DNA from: Bacteroidaceae bacterium
Lineage (GTDB): Bacteria; Bacteroidota; Bacteroidia; Bacteroidales; Bacteroidaceae
Direction of reading: 5' to 3'
NCBI GenBank assembly: GCA_017650045.1
Contig: JAGCFP010000031.1
Span: 1 to 43,163 of the forward strand
Length of the DNA: 43,163 bases
Part shown: piece after piece, positions 28,271 through 37,314 of the stretch
Layout: every line of letters begins with the position of its first letter
Position numbering within the stretch: the stretch's first letter is position 1
The notes under the pieces: model-generated
Told to the model about the DNA's origin: nothing
What the model saw: the letters and a program-made list of their open reading frames with translations, nothing else
Databases searched by the model: none
Translations under genes and position numbers: made by a program

Positions 28271-31200
28271 ATGTTGGTAAAGAAAATCTTTTCTGTAGCA
28301 GCTGCATTGCTTTTAGCTTGCTCCTGCAGCGCTCCCCAAGACTCTCTGGACGATCTCCAGAAAGGGTGGGAGAATCCCCCTCTGAGTGCCCGCAATCGCG
28401 TATGGTGGCACTGGATGAATGGTAACATCACTAAGGATGGTATCCTGAAAGACCTTCAGTGGATGAAAGACACCCGTCAGGGTGGCGTACACAATTTCGA
28501 TGCTGCACTGGGTACACCCACTGTTGTTGAGAAGCGTCTCATTTATATGGACGAAGGTTGGCAAGATGCCTTTGCCTACGCTGTGAAAGTGGCCGATTCT
28601 TTAGGCTTGGAGTTCACTGTGGCTTCTGCTCCAGGATGGAGCTCTACAGGCGGCCCTTGGGTAAGCGAGAAAGACGCTATGAAGAAGTTGGTCTGGAGTC
28701 AGACTTATGTCTCTGGAGCAGTTGATATGATGCTTCCTGAACCCCCACACACCACAGGTGCCTTCCTCGATGGAGCCCCTGCTGGTCGTGGTGAAGCAGG
28801 CACAGGCTATGAGTATTACGAAGATATCGCTGTGATTGCTGTGAAGCAGCCCGCAGGTCGTCAGAGTACCGCAGAGATGGGTGCTAAGGTCACCTCCAGT
28901 GGAGGCCGTTTCACGCTGGAGCAGCTCACCAATGGCAGCCTCGCAGATGCTGTGATGCTCCCTCGTGATGATAGGGCAGGCTTTGCCTGGATTCAGTTTG
29001 AATACTCAGAACCCGTCACCATCAAGTCCATCAAGATGGTAGGCGCAGGAGCAGGTACCCAGCTCGAATCCAGCAATGATGGCAAGACCTTCACCCCTGT
29101 ATGCGATGTGCGTGGGGGCAGCCTATCACAAGTCACCCTGAGCGTTCCTGCCACTACCGCTAAGTATTTCCGCGTGCGTGTGGCCAATCCTCGTGCTGCT
29201 GGCGGAGGTTTCTTCGGAATGGGAGGCGGGCCTTCTGCCCCTCCTGCAGGCACCATGATTGCAGAATTGGAGCTTTACCCATATTCTATGGTACATCGCT
29301 TCGAGGATAAAGCAGCCTTCTCTTCTGCTTCCAACCTCACAGCTCAGCCTACGCCAGCTACAGAGGGTGAAGTCTTCCCTTCTGCTGACGATGTGGTGGA
29401 TGTGACTTCCTACTACCAGAACGGAAAACTCATTTGGAATGCCCCAGAAGGAGAGTGGAAGATCCTCCGCTTCGGATGGTCGCTCACTGGTAAGCAGAAC
29501 CATCCAGCACCTTTGGAGGCCACAGGTCTGGAAGTCGATAAGCTCGATCCAGAGGCTTGGACACGCTATTTCCACACCTACCTTGATATGTATAAGAAAG
29601 CCTCTGGCGGGCTGATGGGTCAGCAGGGTGTGCAGTATGTGCTGACAGACAGCTACGAGGCTGAGTGTGAGAACTGGACGCCAGCGATGTTCCAGGAGTT
29701 TCAGAGTCGTAGGGGATACGACCTCAAGAACTGGCTCCCCGTGCTTGCAGGTGAGGTCATTGGCTCACCTACACAGAGTGACGCCTTCCTCTTCGACTGG
29801 CGCACCACCATTGGTGAGTTGATAGCTGATAACTACACCCTGCTTTCTAAGATTGCCAAAGAAGAATATGGCATGAAGGGCCGCTATACAGAGAGTCATG
29901 AAGGAGGGCGTGCCTATGTGGGTGACGGTATGGACCTGAAAGCCACAGCAGAAGTGCCTATGAGCGCTATGTGGGTCACAGCCCCTTGGGTACCTGTAAA
30001 TCCTGATGGTACGCCCGATATGAGTGTGTATGATGCTGACGATAAGGAGTCAGCCTCTGTGGCACACATCTACGGACAGAACATCGCAGCTGCAGAGTCT
30101 ATGACGGCTCCAGGCGGAGGCGGAAAGTCCTATTCCTACTATCCAGGCAACCTGAAATATGTGGCCGATCGTGAGCTCTCCAATGGTATCAATCGTTTCG
30201 TGATTCATGAGAGTGCCCACCAGCCCGATGATGTGCACGTGCCAGGTATGTCCCTCGGAGGCATAGGGCAGTGGTTCAACCGTCACGACAGTTGGGCACC
30301 TATGGCAGGCATCTGGGCCGACTATATGTCGCGCAGCAGCTTCATGCTGCAGGCAGGTAAGAACGTGGCAGATATCCTCTACTACTATGGCGAGGATGCC
30401 AATGTGACCTCTGTCTTCAATCGTGCTCCCTCTATCCCTGCGGGCTACCAGTGGGATTACCTCAATCCCGATGGATTGCTGAACCACATTTCCTATACGA
30501 AGGGACAGCTTCTCTCTACAGGTGGCACCACCTACAAGGTGATTTGGATGGATCGTAACGTCGATGTGATGTCCCTGCCTGTACTGCGTAAGATTGCCTC
30601 TCTGGTGAATGCAGGTGCTTGGGTAGGTGGTGTGCGTCCTACGCGTTCTGCCTCCCTCACAGACGATTCTGCAGAGTTCCAATCCCTCGTAGCCGATATC
30701 TGGGACAGCGGCAGAAAGAATGTGGTAGAGACCAAAGAACTCTCCGAGCTTCTCAATGCAGCAGGTGTGGCTACAGACGTCAATATCCCTGCAGGCTATA
30801 AGTTCCTCCACCGCACCCTTCCAGGTACGGAGATCTACTGGGTGAACAAGCCCGCACGCGACTATCAGACCGTCACCCTTTCCTTCCGCGTCAGTGGTCT
30901 GAAGCCTATGCTCTGGCACCCCGACAGCGGACTGCAGGAAGAGGTATCTTATGCCCAGAAAGACGGTCGCACGGAAGTCACCCTGAACCTTGTGCCAGAC
31001 GATGCTGTGTTTGTAGTCTTCGCAGGTAAAGCTGCTAAGGAATACACCAAACCCGCAGAAACGAAGAAGAGCGAGCAGACTCTGGAAGGTCCTTGGATTG
31101 TAAGTTTCCAAGAGAAGCGTGGAGCCCCTGCATCTGCTGAGTTTGCTACGCTTGAGAGCTATACAGAGTCCACAGATCCTGGCATTAAGTACTTCTCAGG

Positions 31201-31534
31201 AATCGCCAATTATGCCAAGACAATTGACGCATCATCAGAAGGGAAGATGGTGCTTGATTTGGGTCGTGTGGCCGATCTGGCAGAAGTCTATGTGAACGGA
31301 GAGTACTGTGGAACTGCCTGGAAAGAGCCTTATCAGGTGGATATCACTCAGGCTGTCAAGCCTGGCAAGAACCTCTTAGAAGTGAAGGTAGCTAACGTAT
31401 GGGTGAACCGTCTCATTGGCGATGAGCAGCCTGGGGCAGAGCGCATTGGCTGGACCGACTCTCGTGGTTTCAACGGCAGTGAACCTCTGCAGCCAGCAGG
31501 TTTGCTGGGCCCAGTGAGGGTGGTGAACTATTGA
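28271..31534 (+). CDS. Alpha-L-rhamnosidase, GH106 family lipoprotein
   Basis: A 1087-residue protein with a lipoprotein signal (SVAAALLLACSC, Cys near 17 or 19). The N-terminal part of the catalytic region carries the GH106 hallmark NRVWWHWMNGNITKDGILKDLQWMKDTRQGGVHNFD. Further family segments are FTVASAPGWSSTGGPWV, VQYVLTDSYEAECENWTPAMF, TESHEGGRAYVGDGMDLK, FVIHESAHQPDDVHVPGMSLG and GIWADYMSRSSFMLQ. An internal carbohydrate-binding-like insert (about 240-335) is Gly/Ala-rich. The C-terminus is a GH2-like sugar-binding sandwich (about 975-1087). GH106 enzymes remove rhamnose from rhamnogalacturonan. A DUF6377-type regulator gene follows 92 nt later with its own promoter. No SusC/SusD pair is adjacent and no consensus promoter is visible in the 310 bp upstream. 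Confidence 0.92.
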   Translation: MLVKKIFSVAAALLLACSCSAPQDSLDDLQKGWENPPLSARNRVWWHWMNGNITKDGILKDLQWMKDTRQGGVHNFDAALGTPTVVEKRLIYMDEGWQDAFAYAVKVADSLGLEFTVASAPGWSSTGGPWVSEKDAMKKLVWSQTYVSGAVDMMLPEPPHTTGAFLDGAPAGRGEAGTGYEYYEDIAVIAVKQPAGRQSTAEMGAKVTSSGGRFTLEQLTNGSLADAVMLPRDDRAGFAWIQFEYSEPVTIKSIKMVGAGAGTQLESSNDGKTFTPVCDVRGGSLSQVTLSVPATTAKYFRVRVANPRAAGGGFFGMGGGPSAPPAGTMIAELELYPYSMVHRFEDKAAFSSASNLTAQPTPATEGEVFPSADDVVDVTSYYQNGKLIWNAPEGEWKILRFGWSLTGKQNHPAPLEATGLEVDKLDPEAWTRYFHTYLDMYKKASGGLMGQQGVQYVLTDSYEAECENWTPAMFQEFQSRRGYDLKNWLPVLAGEVIGSPTQSDAFLFDWRTTIGELIADNYTLLSKIAKEEYGMKGRYTESHEGGRAYVGDGMDLKATAEVPMSAMWVTAPWVPVNPDGTPDMSVYDADDKESASVAHIYGQNIAAAESMTAPGGGGKSYSYYPGNLKYVADRELSNGINRFVIHESAHQPDDVHVPGMSLGGIGQWFNRHDSWAPMAGIWADYMSRSSFMLQAGKNVADILYYYGEDANVTSVFNRAPSIPAGYQWDYLNPDGLLNHISYTKGQLLSTGGTTYKVIWMDRNVDVMSLPVLRKIASLVNAGAWVGGVRPTRSASLTDDSAEFQSLVADIWDSGRKNVVETKELSELLNAAGVATDVNIPAGYKFLHRTLPGTEIYWVNKPARDYQTVTLSFRVSGLKPMLWHPDSGLQEEVSYAQKDGRTEVTLNLVPDDAVFVVFAGKAAKEYTKPAETKKSEQTLEGPWIVSFQEKRGAPASAEFATLESYTESTDPGIKYFSGIANYAKTIDASSEGKMVLDLGRVADLAEVYVNGEYCGTAWKEPYQVDITQAVKPGKNLLEVKVANVWVNRLIGDEQPGAERIGWTDSRGFNGSEPLQPAGLLGPVRVVNY

Positions 31535-34455: not shown

Positions 34456-34487
34456 CAAATTTAGCAATAATCTTCTTTTTATACAAT
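34456..34487 (-). promoter_or_regulatory. Promoter of the tandem-ABM gene
   Basis: On the minus strand, ATTG (34484-34487), 20 nt, TAAATTTG (34456-34463). The -7 is perfect and the -33 has one mismatch, the same ATTG variant as the promoter of the precursor peptide at 37.3 kb. Confidence 0.6.
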
Positions 34488-34488
34488 A

Positions 34489-34506
34489 ACTTACCAAAGC
34501 GTAAGT
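34489..34506. promoter_or_regulatory. Candidate HxlR operator (ACTTAC-N6-GTAAGT)
   Basis: A perfect 6-bp inverted repeat with a 6-nt spacer (34489-34494 and 34501-34506), 7 of 8 if extended outward. It abuts the -33 element of the ABM gene, in the 150-bp gap directly downstream of the HxlR gene. The placement suits a dimeric regulator; binding by this HxlR protein is inferred. Confidence 0.5.
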
Positions 34507-34568
34507 AAGGTGTATAATTGAAACTATTGGTCAATTACAACGGTTTTTAGCTTTGCCAATCTTGCATT

Positions 34569-34949
34569 TTAATTCTTTTTTCCTTCAGCATACTGTCGCC
34601 TGTCTGTGATGATGGCACTGAAGTTCTCCAGCGACCAGTTTACCAGGTTGTTCAGCAGGGGCATCAGGGAGCCAGAGCGTTCTGTAAGGTTATATTCCAC
34701 ACGCGGAGGAACCTCAGCGAAAGCCGTGCGTCCCACCAGCCCATCGGCCTCCAGATTGCGGAGGGTGAGGGTCAGCATCTTCTCCGAGATGTCGGGGATA
34801 GCCCTTTGCAATTCCTTGAAGCGCAGAGGGGTCTGGGCTCCATCGAGCACCAGAAGGACCAGCAATGTCCACTTGTCGCCTATCCTTGATAAGACATTAC
34901 GGATGGGACATTCAGGAAACAGGGGGTCAATCAGTTGATCTCTAAGCAT
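34569..34949 (-). CDS. HxlR family winged-helix transcriptional regulator
   Basis: A 126-residue protein of usual family length. It shows ECPIRNVLSRIGDKWTLLVLLVL, RFKELQRAIPDISEKMLTLTLRNLEADGLV and the wing EVPPRVEYNLTERSGSLMPLL, all HxlR signatures. C14 just before the first helix is at the position of the redox- or quinone-sensing Cys of relatives such as YodB. It is the last gene of the precursor-peptide operon, starting 3 nt after the dehydrogenase stop. HxlR relatives often repress quinone or aldehyde detoxification genes; the neighbouring quinone-oxidoreductase-type and ABM genes fit that. Effector not known. Confidence 0.93.
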   Translation of the reverse strand: MLRDQLIDPLFPECPIRNVLSRIGDKWTLLVLLVLDGAQTPLRFKELQRAIPDISEKMLTLTLRNLEADGLVGRTAFAEVPPRVEYNLTERSGSLMPLLNNLVNWSLENFSAIITDRRQYAEGKKN

Positions 34950-34952
34950 ATC

Positions 34953-35915
34953 TTAATTTATTTGAAGGATGATCTTGCCACCAGCGCCCCCCTTTTCTAA
35001 TAAGGTGTGCGCTTCGACGATCTCATCCAGTGTAAAGACTTTGGCATAAAGGGGTTGGATATGCGCATTGGTGATGATGTCGAACATATCCGTGATGGCT
35101 TTCCTGGAGGGAAAGTTGGAGTAGAAACCCGTGAGAAACACTCCGTTGGGAATGTCTTTGATGGGGTCGAACTGAGGAATGCTATAGACATTGCCCAGCA
35201 CCCCCGTGCTGCAGACATAACCTGGGCGACTGACGGTGAGCAACGAGTCACGCAAGGTTTTAGGCCCGATGAGCTCAAGCACCTTGTTGGGTCGCATGGG
35301 GAGCGATTGCTGGCAGATACATTCATCATCGATGATGCAGCAGTCGGCCCCGATGGCTTTCAGCCTCTCGAACGAAGCCTCACGACGGGCAGCCACTATG
35401 ACCCTTGCTCCGATGGCCTTCGCCAGTTGGATGGCAGCCTGTCCCACCGTAGAGGTGGCTCCACGCACCAGCAATGTATCTGTAGCCACCAGTTGCAGAC
35501 ATTCAGAAAGCGAGCCATAGGCCGTATAATAGGTTTCTGGGATAGCAGCCAGTGAAATCCAGTCAAGGTCGGTATCCACCTTGAACACCTGACGCTGGGG
35601 CAGCAGGGCATATTCCGCATAACTGCCGTTGAATGAGCGACCCATACCCCCCATCAGGGCTATCACCCTGTCGCCCTCATGGAGCTGTGAATCAGAGGCA
35701 TCCACCACCTCGCCCACACACTCTATGCCTGGCACTATGGGCGTATGGATATACTCGTGGTCGGCCTCAAACATCCTCAGTAAGGCTTCCGAGTGGTTCA
35801 ACCCAGCAGCACGCACCCTGACCAACACCCATCCAGGCTTCACCTCTGGCACAGGTATCTCACTCACCTTCAAATCTTCGGCCTTACAGCATTTGTCTAA
35901 TACTACCGCTTTCAT
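34953..35915 (-). CDS. Quinone oxidoreductase-type MDR dehydrogenase in the precursor-peptide operon
   Basis: A 320-residue NADPH-dependent medium-chain dehydrogenase/reductase. N-terminal GroES-like domain (MKAVVLDKCCKAEDLKVSEIPVPEVKPGWVLVRVRAAGLNHSE, PGIECVGEV, GDRVIAL), then a Rossmann domain with VRGATSTVGQAAIQLAKAIGARVIV and a final GGAGGKIILQI. It lacks the catalytic-zinc Cys at the AAGLNHSE position, so it belongs to the zinc-free quinone oxidoreductase group. An upstream MLEG start is possible, but the ATG at 35915 overlaps the TAA stop of the radical SAM gene (TAATG), a strong sign of translational coupling. It might reduce a quinone or enone, or act on the modified peptide; the latter is speculation. 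Confidence 0.9.
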   Translation of the reverse strand: MKAVVLDKCCKAEDLKVSEIPVPEVKPGWVLVRVRAAGLNHSEALLRMFEADHEYIHTPIVPGIECVGEVVDASDSQLHEGDRVIALMGGMGRSFNGSYAEYALLPQRQVFKVDTDLDWISLAAIPETYYTAYGSLSECLQLVATDTLLVRGATSTVGQAAIQLAKAIGARVIVAARREASFERLKAIGADCCIIDDECICQQSLPMRPNKVLELIGPKTLRDSLLTVSRPGYVCSTGVLGNVYSIPQFDPIKDIPNGVFLTGFYSNFPSRKAITDMFDIITNAHIQPLYAKVFTLDEIVEAHTLLEKGGAGGKIILQIN

Positions 35916-36943
35916 TATTCCTTCCAACATTGCGGGTCAGCCGCATAAAAGTTTTTCGTATATCCGTAGGCAACAGCAGGACATCCGCGACAGAAGCGCA
36001 GCAGCTCGCACTTACTGCATTTCTCGAAGCGTTCATGCTGGCGGTATTGGTCCATCCGTTCACCACAGAACACATCAGCCAGTTCCTCATTCACCGTGCC
36101 CACATAGCTCTCAAAGCGTCTGCAAGCCATCAGTCGCCCCTCAGCAGAGATGGTAAAATGGCAGTTGCCACAGTTGCACCCATCATAGATGGTCTCCTCG
36201 TCCAGTCCCTCAGGAATCTTGAACAAGCCCTTCTCATAGAGGAACAGCGTCCACAGATGATCCTTCAGGTTAAAGGTCGTGTCAGTGTCCTTATACTGCT
36301 CAAACTTTGCCCAACATCTTTCCAGGAGGTCGCGATACTGCAACGGCTCTATGTGCCAACCCTTATCAGGTGCAGCCTTATCCTCGCTCGTGGGGCAGTA
36401 GCGCCCGAAGGCAAAGATGTCTGCATGATGCTCCACCACCAGGTCTATGATGTCAGGTACCTCATGGATGTTGGTCCCCGATACCGTTGTCATGATGGCA
36501 CAGTGCATCCCCGCCTTTCGGATGGTGTCTATGGCCTCCAGCGTGCGGTCTAACGAGCCAGGCTTACGGAAATAATCATGAGTCTCTCGCAATCCGTCTA
36601 TGCTCAGCTGATACTTTCGACACCCCAAGCTTTTCAGTCGTTGGCACACCTCATCCGTCAGATGGAACGGGTTGCCCATGATGGTGAAAGGGATGTCACG
36701 ACTGTGCACCAACTCCAGGAAATCCCAGAAGCGGCTGTGAAGGATGGGGTCGCCCCCCGTGATATATAAATAAGGTAAGCGACTCATCCGCTGGCACATG
36801 CGCTCCACGTTTGCAAGCACTGAGACAAGCCTTTCCCACGACATCTCTACCAGTTGTGGATGCCCCTCTGAGAAGATGTAGCAGTGCTTGCAACGCTGGT
36901 CGCACGCATCAGTGATGTGCCATTGAAATGCGAAATACTCCAT
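35915..36943 (-). CDS. Radical SAM/SPASM peptide maturase of an ACGX-type system
   Basis: A 342-residue enzyme. The radical SAM motif CX3CX2C is C14-DQR-C18-KH-C21, followed by YITGGDP (SAM-binding GGE-like motif) and QLSIDG. The C-terminal SPASM region (about 250-342) holds many Cys: CNCGNCHF, LMACRRFESY, then CSKCELLRFCRGCPA and the last Cys in PQCWKE. This should bind one or two auxiliary 4Fe-4S clusters, as in peptide-modifying enzymes. The ATG at 36943 is preferred over the GTG at 36946 because an AAGGAG lies 5 nt before it, unusual for this phylum. It begins 9 nt after the ACGX precursor stop and overlaps the dehydrogenase start. I recall a TIGRFAM model for radical SAM/SPASM proteins of an ACGX system; the match needs a search. 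Likely substrates are the Cys residues of the upstream peptide. Confidence 0.88.
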   Translation of the reverse strand: MEYFAFQWHITDACDQRCKHCYIFSEGHPQLVEMSWERLVSVLANVERMCQRMSRLPYLYITGGDPILHSRFWDFLELVHSRDIPFTIMGNPFHLTDEVCQRLKSLGCRKYQLSIDGLRETHDYFRKPGSLDRTLEAIDTIRKAGMHCAIMTTVSGTNIHEVPDIIDLVVEHHADIFAFGRYCPTSEDKAAPDKGWHIEPLQYRDLLERCWAKFEQYKDTDTTFNLKDHLWTLFLYEKGLFKIPEGLDEETIYDGCNCGNCHFTISAEGRLMACRRFESYVGTVNEELADVFCGERMDQYRQHERFEKCSKCELLRFCRGCPAVAYGYTKNFYAADPQCWKE

Positions 36944-36952
36944 CACGTCTCC

Positions 36953-37198
36953 TTACTTCTCACCTGCACCACAGGCACTGCCACAAGCAGCAGGTTTCTC
37001 CTCAGGCTTGTCGCCTGCACCACAGGCACTGCCACAAGCAGCAGGCTTCTCCTCAGGCTTGTCGCCTGCACCACAAGCACTTCCACAGGCAGCAGGTTTG
37101 TCACTGGCACCACAAGCAGCCCCACAAGCAGCGGGCTTCTCCTCGTTCAACATAACGCCCTGAGCGCTATGAGCGAAATTAAAATCTACTCTTTTCAT
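36953..37198 (-). CDS. ACGX-repeat precursor peptide for radical SAM modification
   Basis: An 81-residue peptide from the ATG at 37198. The frame is open further upstream, but that part has a different composition and contains the promoter. Residues 1-20 (MKRVDFNFAHSAQGVMLNEE) look like a leader. Residues 21-81 hold four blocks, KPAACGAACGASD, two of KPAACGSACGAGDKPEE, and KPAACGSACGAGEK. There are eight Ala-Cys-Gly-X motifs and eight Cys, no aromatic residue after position 8, and Lys/Pro/Glu linkers. Repeated Cys motifs with fixed spacing directly upstream of a SPASM enzyme are the hallmark of a modified peptide precursor. Metal-binding or a simple Cys-rich peptide are alternatives. There is no signal peptide, so export would need another route. 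Confidence 0.88.
   Translation of the reverse strand: MKRVDFNFAHSAQGVMLNEEKPAACGAACGASDKPAACGSACGAGDKPEEKPAACGSACGAGDKPEEKPAACGSACGAGEK
36956..37138 (-). repeat. In-frame coding repeat of the ACGX precursor
   Basis: Units at 37100-37138, 37049-37099, 36998-37048 and 36956-36997. The two 51-bp units differ at only a few bases, and the last is 42 bp. Near-identity suggests copy number can change by slippage or recombination. Confidence 0.85.
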
Positions 37199-37282
37199 TT
37201 TCTTACTTTTAAAAATAAACATCTGGTTAGCTAATCGCTTTACAAAGATGCGGAAAAGAATCATTCTCGACAAGAGAGCACG

Positions 37283-37314
37283 CAAAGGTAAGCAACTTTC
37301 TAAAAGAAAGCAAT
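37283..37314 (-). promoter_or_regulatory. Promoter of the ACGX operon
   Basis: On the minus strand, ATTG (37311-37314), 20 nt, TACCTTTG (37283-37290). The -7 is perfect and the -33 is the ATTG variant also seen at the ABM gene. The leader is about 80 nt. A GTAAG half-site overlaps the -7 at 37288-37292, but no full ACTTAC-N6-GTAAGT repeat is present. Confidence 0.55.

Follow-up and report, generated by a model that had tools for sequence, protein, structure and literature searches.

A conserved ACGX radical SAM peptide operon with an HxlR regulator and interchangeable reductases: a putative thiol-stress cassette

The contig JAGCFP010000031.1 of a Bacteroidaceae bacterium (GCA_017650045.1), a draft genome of 2.27 Mb that is 76.6% complete, was analyzed over a stretch of 43,163 nucleotides, hereafter called the window. 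It harbors a compact, putative four-gene operon on the minus strand that comprises the ACGX-repeat precursor peptide AcgA (81 residues, eight ACG motifs; 36953..37198), the radical SAM/SPASM maturase AcgM (342 residues; 35915..36943), a medium-chain reductase of the quinone-oxidoreductase type (320 residues; 34953..35915) and a regulator of the HxlR (DUF24) family (126 residues, with C14 as the single cysteine; 34569..34949). The arrangement described by the original prediction, which had been made from the letters alone, is confirmed: the stop of acgA and the ATG of acgM at position 36943 are 9 nt apart, the TAA of acgM and the ATG of the reductase gene overlap by one A (TAATG) with the frames joining at 35915, and 3 nt separate the end of the reductase gene (34953) from the start of the HxlR gene (34949). 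The interpretation that accompanied this observation is partly supported, as outlined below.

The prediction had also pointed to a TIGRFAM pair for ACGX peptides, and a search with hidden Markov models placed both proteins above the curated cut-offs of this pair: AcgA scores 74.2 bits with TIGR04341 (cut-off 28) and AcgM 566.7 bits with TIGR04340 (cut-off 400), in addition to the Pfam domains Radical_SAM and SPASM. The reductase exhibits the Pfam domains ADH_N and ADH_zinc_N above cut-off, and the regulator matches PF01638 with 92.1 bits (cut-off 20.8). A scan of the window against Rfam at gathering thresholds provided zero matches. A chosen set of 32 maturases shows no variation in the CX3CX2C motif (C14, C18, C21) or in eight C-terminal cysteines. 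The best NCBIfam model outside the ACGX system is SbtM (TIGR04082) for the maturases of the window, Roseburia and Subdoligranulum alike (170.7, 156.5 and 158.9 bits). SbtM forms a thiooxazole with loss of four hydrogens, according to an excerpt of PMC11002830. Among PDB sequences, the maturase profile matches SkfB best (66.6 bits, profile positions 9-181), and the scores of the maturase with the models of SkfB, StsB and PapB are far below cut-off (63.9 versus 300 bits for SkfB and 52.4 versus 340 bits for PapB, among the best 25 of 66 models).

Our comparative analysis of the relatives of AcgM, for which one genome per species was scanned, recovered 314 stretches, and the locus counts given here refer to the best 80 of them. 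Upstream of the maturase and on the same strand, 77 of the 80 loci contain an open reading frame (ORF) in which [AS]CG motifs occur at least three times, with a median gap of 18 nt and at most 100 nt in 65 of these 77 cases. In the three loci without a peptide ORF (L010, L036 and L070), the maturase match is preceded by 47, 469 and 103 bases, respectively. The short upstream fragment of L070 terminates in ACG repeats, the stretch before the maturase of L036 is occupied by panB, and the nine upstream residues of L010 resemble, by eye, the C-terminus of PanB. Including that of the window, the 78 peptide ORFs contain three to eight Cys-Gly units each. Altogether 436 of their 478 cysteines are part of a Cys-Gly unit, a count in which some members are over-extended at the N-terminus and thus contribute stray cysteines; A, S or T stands next in 433 of the 436 units, and [ST]AQ precedes the first unit in 69 of the 78 peptides. 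A signal sequence was not seen in the peptides, as judged by eye. The panB gene for ketopantoate hydroxymethyltransferase is found near the cassette in seven of the 80 loci (L018, L036:3-458, L049, L050, L054, L055 and L060); in L018 it sits between peptide and maturase (430-1251, PF02548), and the copy of L060 is partial and more than 5 kb away.

Partners of the maturase were counted with chosen queries at 45% query coverage and a limit of 3 kb; this count replaced an earlier table with both reductases in 14 of the 80 loci, which presumably resulted from ORF calls extended into the maturase. A gene of the quinone-oxidoreductase type is present in 48 of the 80 loci, and a nitroreductase (26 of 80) fills in for most of the others. 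On the operon strand of the 53 well-flanked loci, i.e., those whose flanks reach 1500 bases or more upstream and 2000 or more downstream, 37 harbor only the quinone-oxidoreductase type, 15 only the nitroreductase, one both and none neither, which amounts to exactly one reductase family in 52 of the 53 cases. The single locus with both is L004, whose nitroreductase is located about 2 kb upstream of the maturase. A maturase tree with 81 members, whose bootstrap was not yet fully stable and in which 74 members carry a reductase label, shows 11 changes of this label, compared with about 21 for shuffled labels, and at least nine of the changes are forced by well-supported branches. The reductase thus appears clustered on the maturase tree yet repeatedly switched, a pattern expected of two unrelated enzymes that fill one role. 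The dehydrogenase had originally been proposed to be either a tailoring or a detoxification enzyme. Its exchange for an unrelated nitroreductase in many relatives is a little more in keeping with a detoxifying reductase than with an enzyme dedicated to tailoring, and a tailoring role is still compatible with the data.

The HxlR regulator is located within 3 kb of the maturase in 70 of the 80 loci and in 50 of the 53 well-flanked ones, either downstream on the same strand as in the window or divergently upstream as in other loci. In a sample of 60 genomes of the order, which includes that of the window, 23 have an HxlR match and none has more than two, hence this association is far from chance. 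The regulator of the window is the sole HxlR protein found in its genome. Dehydrogenase and HxlR regulator, for which the prediction had proposed a neighborhood survey, accordingly turned out to be conserved partners of the ACGX pair rather than bystanders. Residue C14 is invariant in all 71 cassette HxlRs and represents the sole cysteine in 55 of them. The top-ranking PDB match, YybR (4a5m), which we take to be HypR, has its own C14 at the aligned position. The motif CPxRN is present in all 71 Bacteroidota-type cassette HxlRs, in three of 16 controls and in none of the three plasmid HxlRs.

According to PMC6943732, N-terminal cysteines enable HypR, YodB and CatR to respond to HOCl, quinones and diamide; the paper names C14 of HypR as redox-sensing and describes the nitroreductase YodC as acting on diamide and quinones. 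QorR, a regulator with one cysteine, is linked to a quinone oxidoreductase in a title cited in the available portion of PMC11633110. Sensing of formaldehyde was considered and rejected for the cassette HxlRs. It requires Cys11 and Lys13 in HxlR of B. subtilis, as stated in the consulted section of PMC7835342, and the lysine two residues past the cysteine is absent in the cassettes, where V, I or F occupies this position in 71 of 71 proteins. Outside ACGX cassettes, HxlR genes adjoin cupin genes in L118 (PF07883) as well as in L124 and L128 (by eye), and an NmrA/NAD(P)H-binding gene in L125.

A promoter-like element, TTG-N20-CATCTTTG, precedes acgA on the minus strand (37243..37273), and its class is conserved in relatives: in 67 of 78 cases the peptide is preceded by 60 or more noncoding bases, and 52 of these 67 regions contain TTG-N19-21-[TC]AnnTTTG, compared with 1.1 expected in shuffles. 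A motif finder mostly recovered this promoter, in the co-directional group. The 53 bases that end at the promoter TTG frequently contain an inverted repeat of the type GTTAC-N5-16-GTAAC. It is found with at most one mismatch in 20 of the 52 regions versus none of the 47 adjoining 53-base stretches farther upstream (0.86 in shuffles), and with at most two mismatches in 40 of 52 versus eight of 47 one step upstream (7.96 in shuffles), figures that are inflated by the shared descent of the loci. An exact enumeration of inverted repeats yielded no site of the GTTAC type, which was revealed by k-mers and the mismatch-tolerant test. In the window, an imperfect inverted repeat, CTTTCT-TTT-AGAAAG (37292..37313, minus strand), is located upstream of the promoter-like element; it represents a candidate operator that differs from the GTTAC/GTAAC form.

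The distribution of the maturase is patchy. It scores above cut-off in one of 395 genomes of a phylum-wide sample and in two of 295 genomes of an order-wide sample, with the genome of the window counted in both. The nearest named maturases stem from Bacteroidaceae genomes of ruminants, the one in L002 being 91% identical. A short maturase-like stretch with two internal stops in a genome of the same family (G351:C3:112459-112740; model positions 1-94, 65.9 bits) is perhaps a decayed copy. ACG-repeat peptides were not seen near the distant maturase relatives L083-L088, which are represented by short stretches only, three of them (L083, L084 and L088) close to contig ends.

A search of 72,556 plasmid records at the protein level (E 1e-40) retrieved four matching records that correspond to three distinct plasmids, namely, from Roseburia sp. 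831b, Subdoligranulum variabile and, in two versions, the archaeon Methanosphaera. The Roseburia plasmid (L153) harbors acgA, acgM, a divergent HxlR gene, a nitroreductase, a PNPOx-like protein with 4Fe-4S motifs (PNPOx-4Fe4S), a protein-ADP-ribose hydrolase and a protein named Sir2. A divergent HxlR gene, a peptide with eight ACG motifs, a maturase, a nitroreductase and a macrodomain protein are found on the Subdoligranulum plasmid, together with PNPOx-4Fe4S and Sir2-like proteins recognized by eye. The Methanosphaera plasmid carries genes for PNPOx-4Fe4S, a divergent HxlR, the peptide, the maturase and a quinone-oxidoreductase-type protein. Its peptide contains six ACG motifs and one PCG motif and is not reported by TIGR04341, and the maturase (L155:5995-7019) is annotated as two reading frames. 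BREX genes are located close by on this plasmid. HxlR, peptide, maturase and a single reductase type are accordingly kept in all three plasmids, two from Bacillota and one from an archaeon. The archaeal quinone-oxidoreductase-type protein is 49% identical to that of the window, and the nitroreductase of Roseburia is 57% identical to its counterpart in L042.

Downstream of the HxlR gene lies a gene for a lipoprotein-like protein (judged by eye) with two ABM domains (PF03992; 33729..34418, minus strand). ABM proteins include quinol monooxygenases, and LsrG is among the PDB matches of this one. The cassettes of L003, L004, L008, L021 and L045 have full-length homologues nearby, the one of L021 being 90.6% identical; in L003 and L008 the ABM gene forms a row with a second gene and the peptide, with spacings of 14 and 34 nt. 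The ABM gene is therefore probably a further member of the cassette set. On the minus strand, it is preceded by a promoter-like TTG-N20-TAAATTTG (34456..34489; spacing counted by eye) and an inverted repeat CTTAC...GTAAG (34490..34509). The latter is a candidate operator by position alone, because repeats of this type are no rarity in the window, where TTAC-N4-12-GTAA occurs seven times compared with one to seven times in ten shuffles. Besides reductase and HxlR, further recurrent neighbors in the 80 loci are of redox or detoxification type: PNPOx-like proteins with 4Fe-4S motifs (16 loci), ABM (13), cupin (5) and tautomerase (4).

Additional genes adjoin the cassette in subsets of the loci. 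In Bacteroidota and Bacillota (L003, L004, L007, L021, L058, L153 and L154), it is flanked by a protein-ADP-ribose hydrolase of the macrodomain type and by a Sir2-like protein, the latter scoring below the cut-off of Pfam in L153 and having no match in L007 and L154. A DUF5131 gene is present within about 5 kb in five of the 80 loci (L038, L050, L058, L064 [PF07505] and L077). Homologues of a large lipoprotein-like gene upstream in the window (28271-31534) with 85-87% identity adjoin the cassette in L006 and L002, which indicates that the neighborhood is partly common to close relatives.

The combination of a thiol-type sensor with a reductase and with flavin/FeS, ABM and tautomerase proteins points to reactive electrophiles such as quinones. 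We give an even chance to the interpretation that the operon is an HxlR-controlled, inducible cassette against electrophile or thiol stress, whose peptide stays in the cell and carries Cys-Gly units modified by the radical SAM enzyme. HxlR, a DUF24-type protein with one N-terminal cysteine, would sense a thiol-reactive compound, probably quinone-like, and would control the promoter ahead of acgA. AcgA, short and rich in Cys-Gly units, would then reside in the cytoplasm, and modification of these units by AcgM would most likely produce a sulfur heterocycle, for instance 5-thiooxazole, by analogy with SbtM as the nearest characterized relative of AcgM. The reductase would reduce the offending compound, and the modified AcgA beside it could offer many soft-sulfur sites at which electrophiles, or metal set free by the stress, are trapped. 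The reductase and chemical-stress sensor genes of the relatives suggest, at the level of gene content, that the modified peptide helps cells to cope with thiol-attacking chemicals. More tentatively, the cassette may define an intracellular ribosomal peptide natural product, a cysteine-repeat soft-sulfur scavenger or redox buffer that is induced via HxlR and accompanied by an interchangeable reductase, on chromosomes and plasmids of gut and rumen bacteria and archaea. For anaerobes, such a product would be the peptide equivalent of low-molecular-weight thiols.

Several observations weigh against the stress cassette. The 80 loci are the closest of the 314 stretches and thus of shared descent, and HxlR is not found within 3 kb of the maturase in three of the 53 well-flanked loci (L004, L007 and L067). 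An N-terminal Cys-Pro is also present in 15 of 16 readable control HxlRs (from 21 controls taken from 30 rows of the order sample), and a cysteine that is common in HxlR proteins at large documents competence and not specificity. The promoter of the window lacks the GTTAC/GTAAC repeat of its relatives (best fit with four mismatches), and the different form of the repeat that it has instead speaks against one simple operator. AcgM fails the SbtM model with 170.7 versus 350 bits and covers positions 198-515 of 516, leaving about 197 N-terminal model positions without a counterpart. Finally, the top NCBIfam model of the reductase is the PIG3 quinone oxidoreductase, with a score of 167.4 bits that is below the cut-off of 296.8.

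Two alternatives assign the peptide a function apart from electrophiles. It might be a metal buffer, whose 5-thiooxazoles, made by AcgM on the Cys-Gly units, bind Cu(I) or another soft metal, with HxlR and reductase answering the redox side of metal stress; this would be the counterpart in anaerobes of the captophorins and bufferins made by MNIO enzymes. The repetition of Cys-Gly units and the kinship of AcgM to SbtM are in accordance with this explanation, as is the presence of several 5-thiooxazoles in captophorins, which bind copper and are formed in stress according to the available part of PMC12668002. A different enzyme would indeed be required, since the genome of the window, at its stated completeness, has no match to PF05114 (MNIO, DUF692) and no such gene was noticed by eye among the recurrent neighbors. 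However, no metal transporter, chaperone or metal regulator was recognized among the recurrent clusters, not all of which were scanned against families, and the peptides, as judged by eye, are without the signal sequence that one would look for in analogy to bufferins, which are exported. We therefore regard a metal buffer as rather unlikely. An exported thioether peptide of the sactipeptide or ranthipeptide type with an antibacterial or signaling role would explain the SPASM maturase beside a Cys-rich precursor and the top PDB rank of SkfB, but the partner genes are of stress type and the SkfB, StsB and PapB models are far from being reached. Moreover, an exporter, protease or immunity gene was not recognized in the clusters found in at least four of the 80 loci, which were read by inspection and of which not every one was family-scanned. 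This explanation is very improbable.

The constant presence of the reductase, which accompanies the maturase directly downstream or nearby in all 53 well-flanked loci, could instead mean that peptide and reductase work on each other. In the tightly packed operon, the reductase may tailor AcgA, for instance by oxidizing or reducing a ring made by AcgM, so that the product is one modified peptide, and nitroreductase-fold enzymes do act as azoline dehydrogenases in other peptide clusters. A scan of six cassette nitroreductases nevertheless gave no support for peptide dehydrogenases of the SagB type (one weak match of 13.7 bits, cut-off 78.4), and the swaps with an unrelated medium-chain reductase are less natural for a peptide-specific step, which makes tailoring unlikely. 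Conversely, the modified AcgA could be a cofactor or electron partner of the reductase, in the way that mycofactocin serves its dehydrogenases, and the FeS/PNPOx-like protein of 16 loci and all three plasmid cassettes would suit such a redox carrier. A cofactor specific to one protein would hardly be expected to have two unrelated reductase families in the same place, NAD(P)H or FMN is what both families normally rely on, and AcgM scores far below the cut-off of the mycofactocin maturase model (71.5 versus 265 bits); a redox carrier is accordingly quite unlikely.

If the electrophile-stress cassette holds, modified ribosomal peptides would act as cytoplasmic stress reagents in anaerobes of the gut and the rumen. 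The ACGX pair has been named without a function, and its neighborhood offers a specific and cheap test of the control by a single-cysteine HxlR and of the cysteine chemistry.

The pair as such is already known by name from the ACGX system of NCBIfam (TIGR04340/TIGR04341, acgM/acgA), to which the window pair belongs by both models and under which the Roseburia pair is annotated; its neighborhood of HxlR and interchangeable reductase is the new result added here. No paper on the ACGX pair or its HxlR/DUF24 setting was found in the open-licence literature, which does not prove absence, and the main text of a survey of Bacteroidales peptide clusters (PMC10352776), as far as it was accessible, contains neither a word that begins with ACG nor HxlR. 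The DUF24/HxlR redox sensors HypR, YodB, CatR and QorR resemble the regulator of the window in the HxlR fold, the N-terminal cysteine and a nearby nitroreductase or quinone reductase; in contrast, the latter is joined to a radical SAM peptide pair. HypR furthermore has a second cysteine, which most of the cassette HxlRs (55 of 71) lack. The thio(seleno)oxazole system of SbtM provides the closest maturase model outside ACGX, yet AcgM is below its cut-off and N-terminally shorter, and no selenobiotic target model is among the matches listed for the window peptide. Captophorins and bufferins are likewise repeated Cys-Gly peptides tied to stress, but they are made by MNIO enzymes, whereas the ACGX system has a radical SAM enzyme instead. 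Provided that the proposed function is correct, the ACGX system would represent a radical SAM equivalent of the MNIO stress peptides of Pseudomonadota, whose formation uses oxygen.

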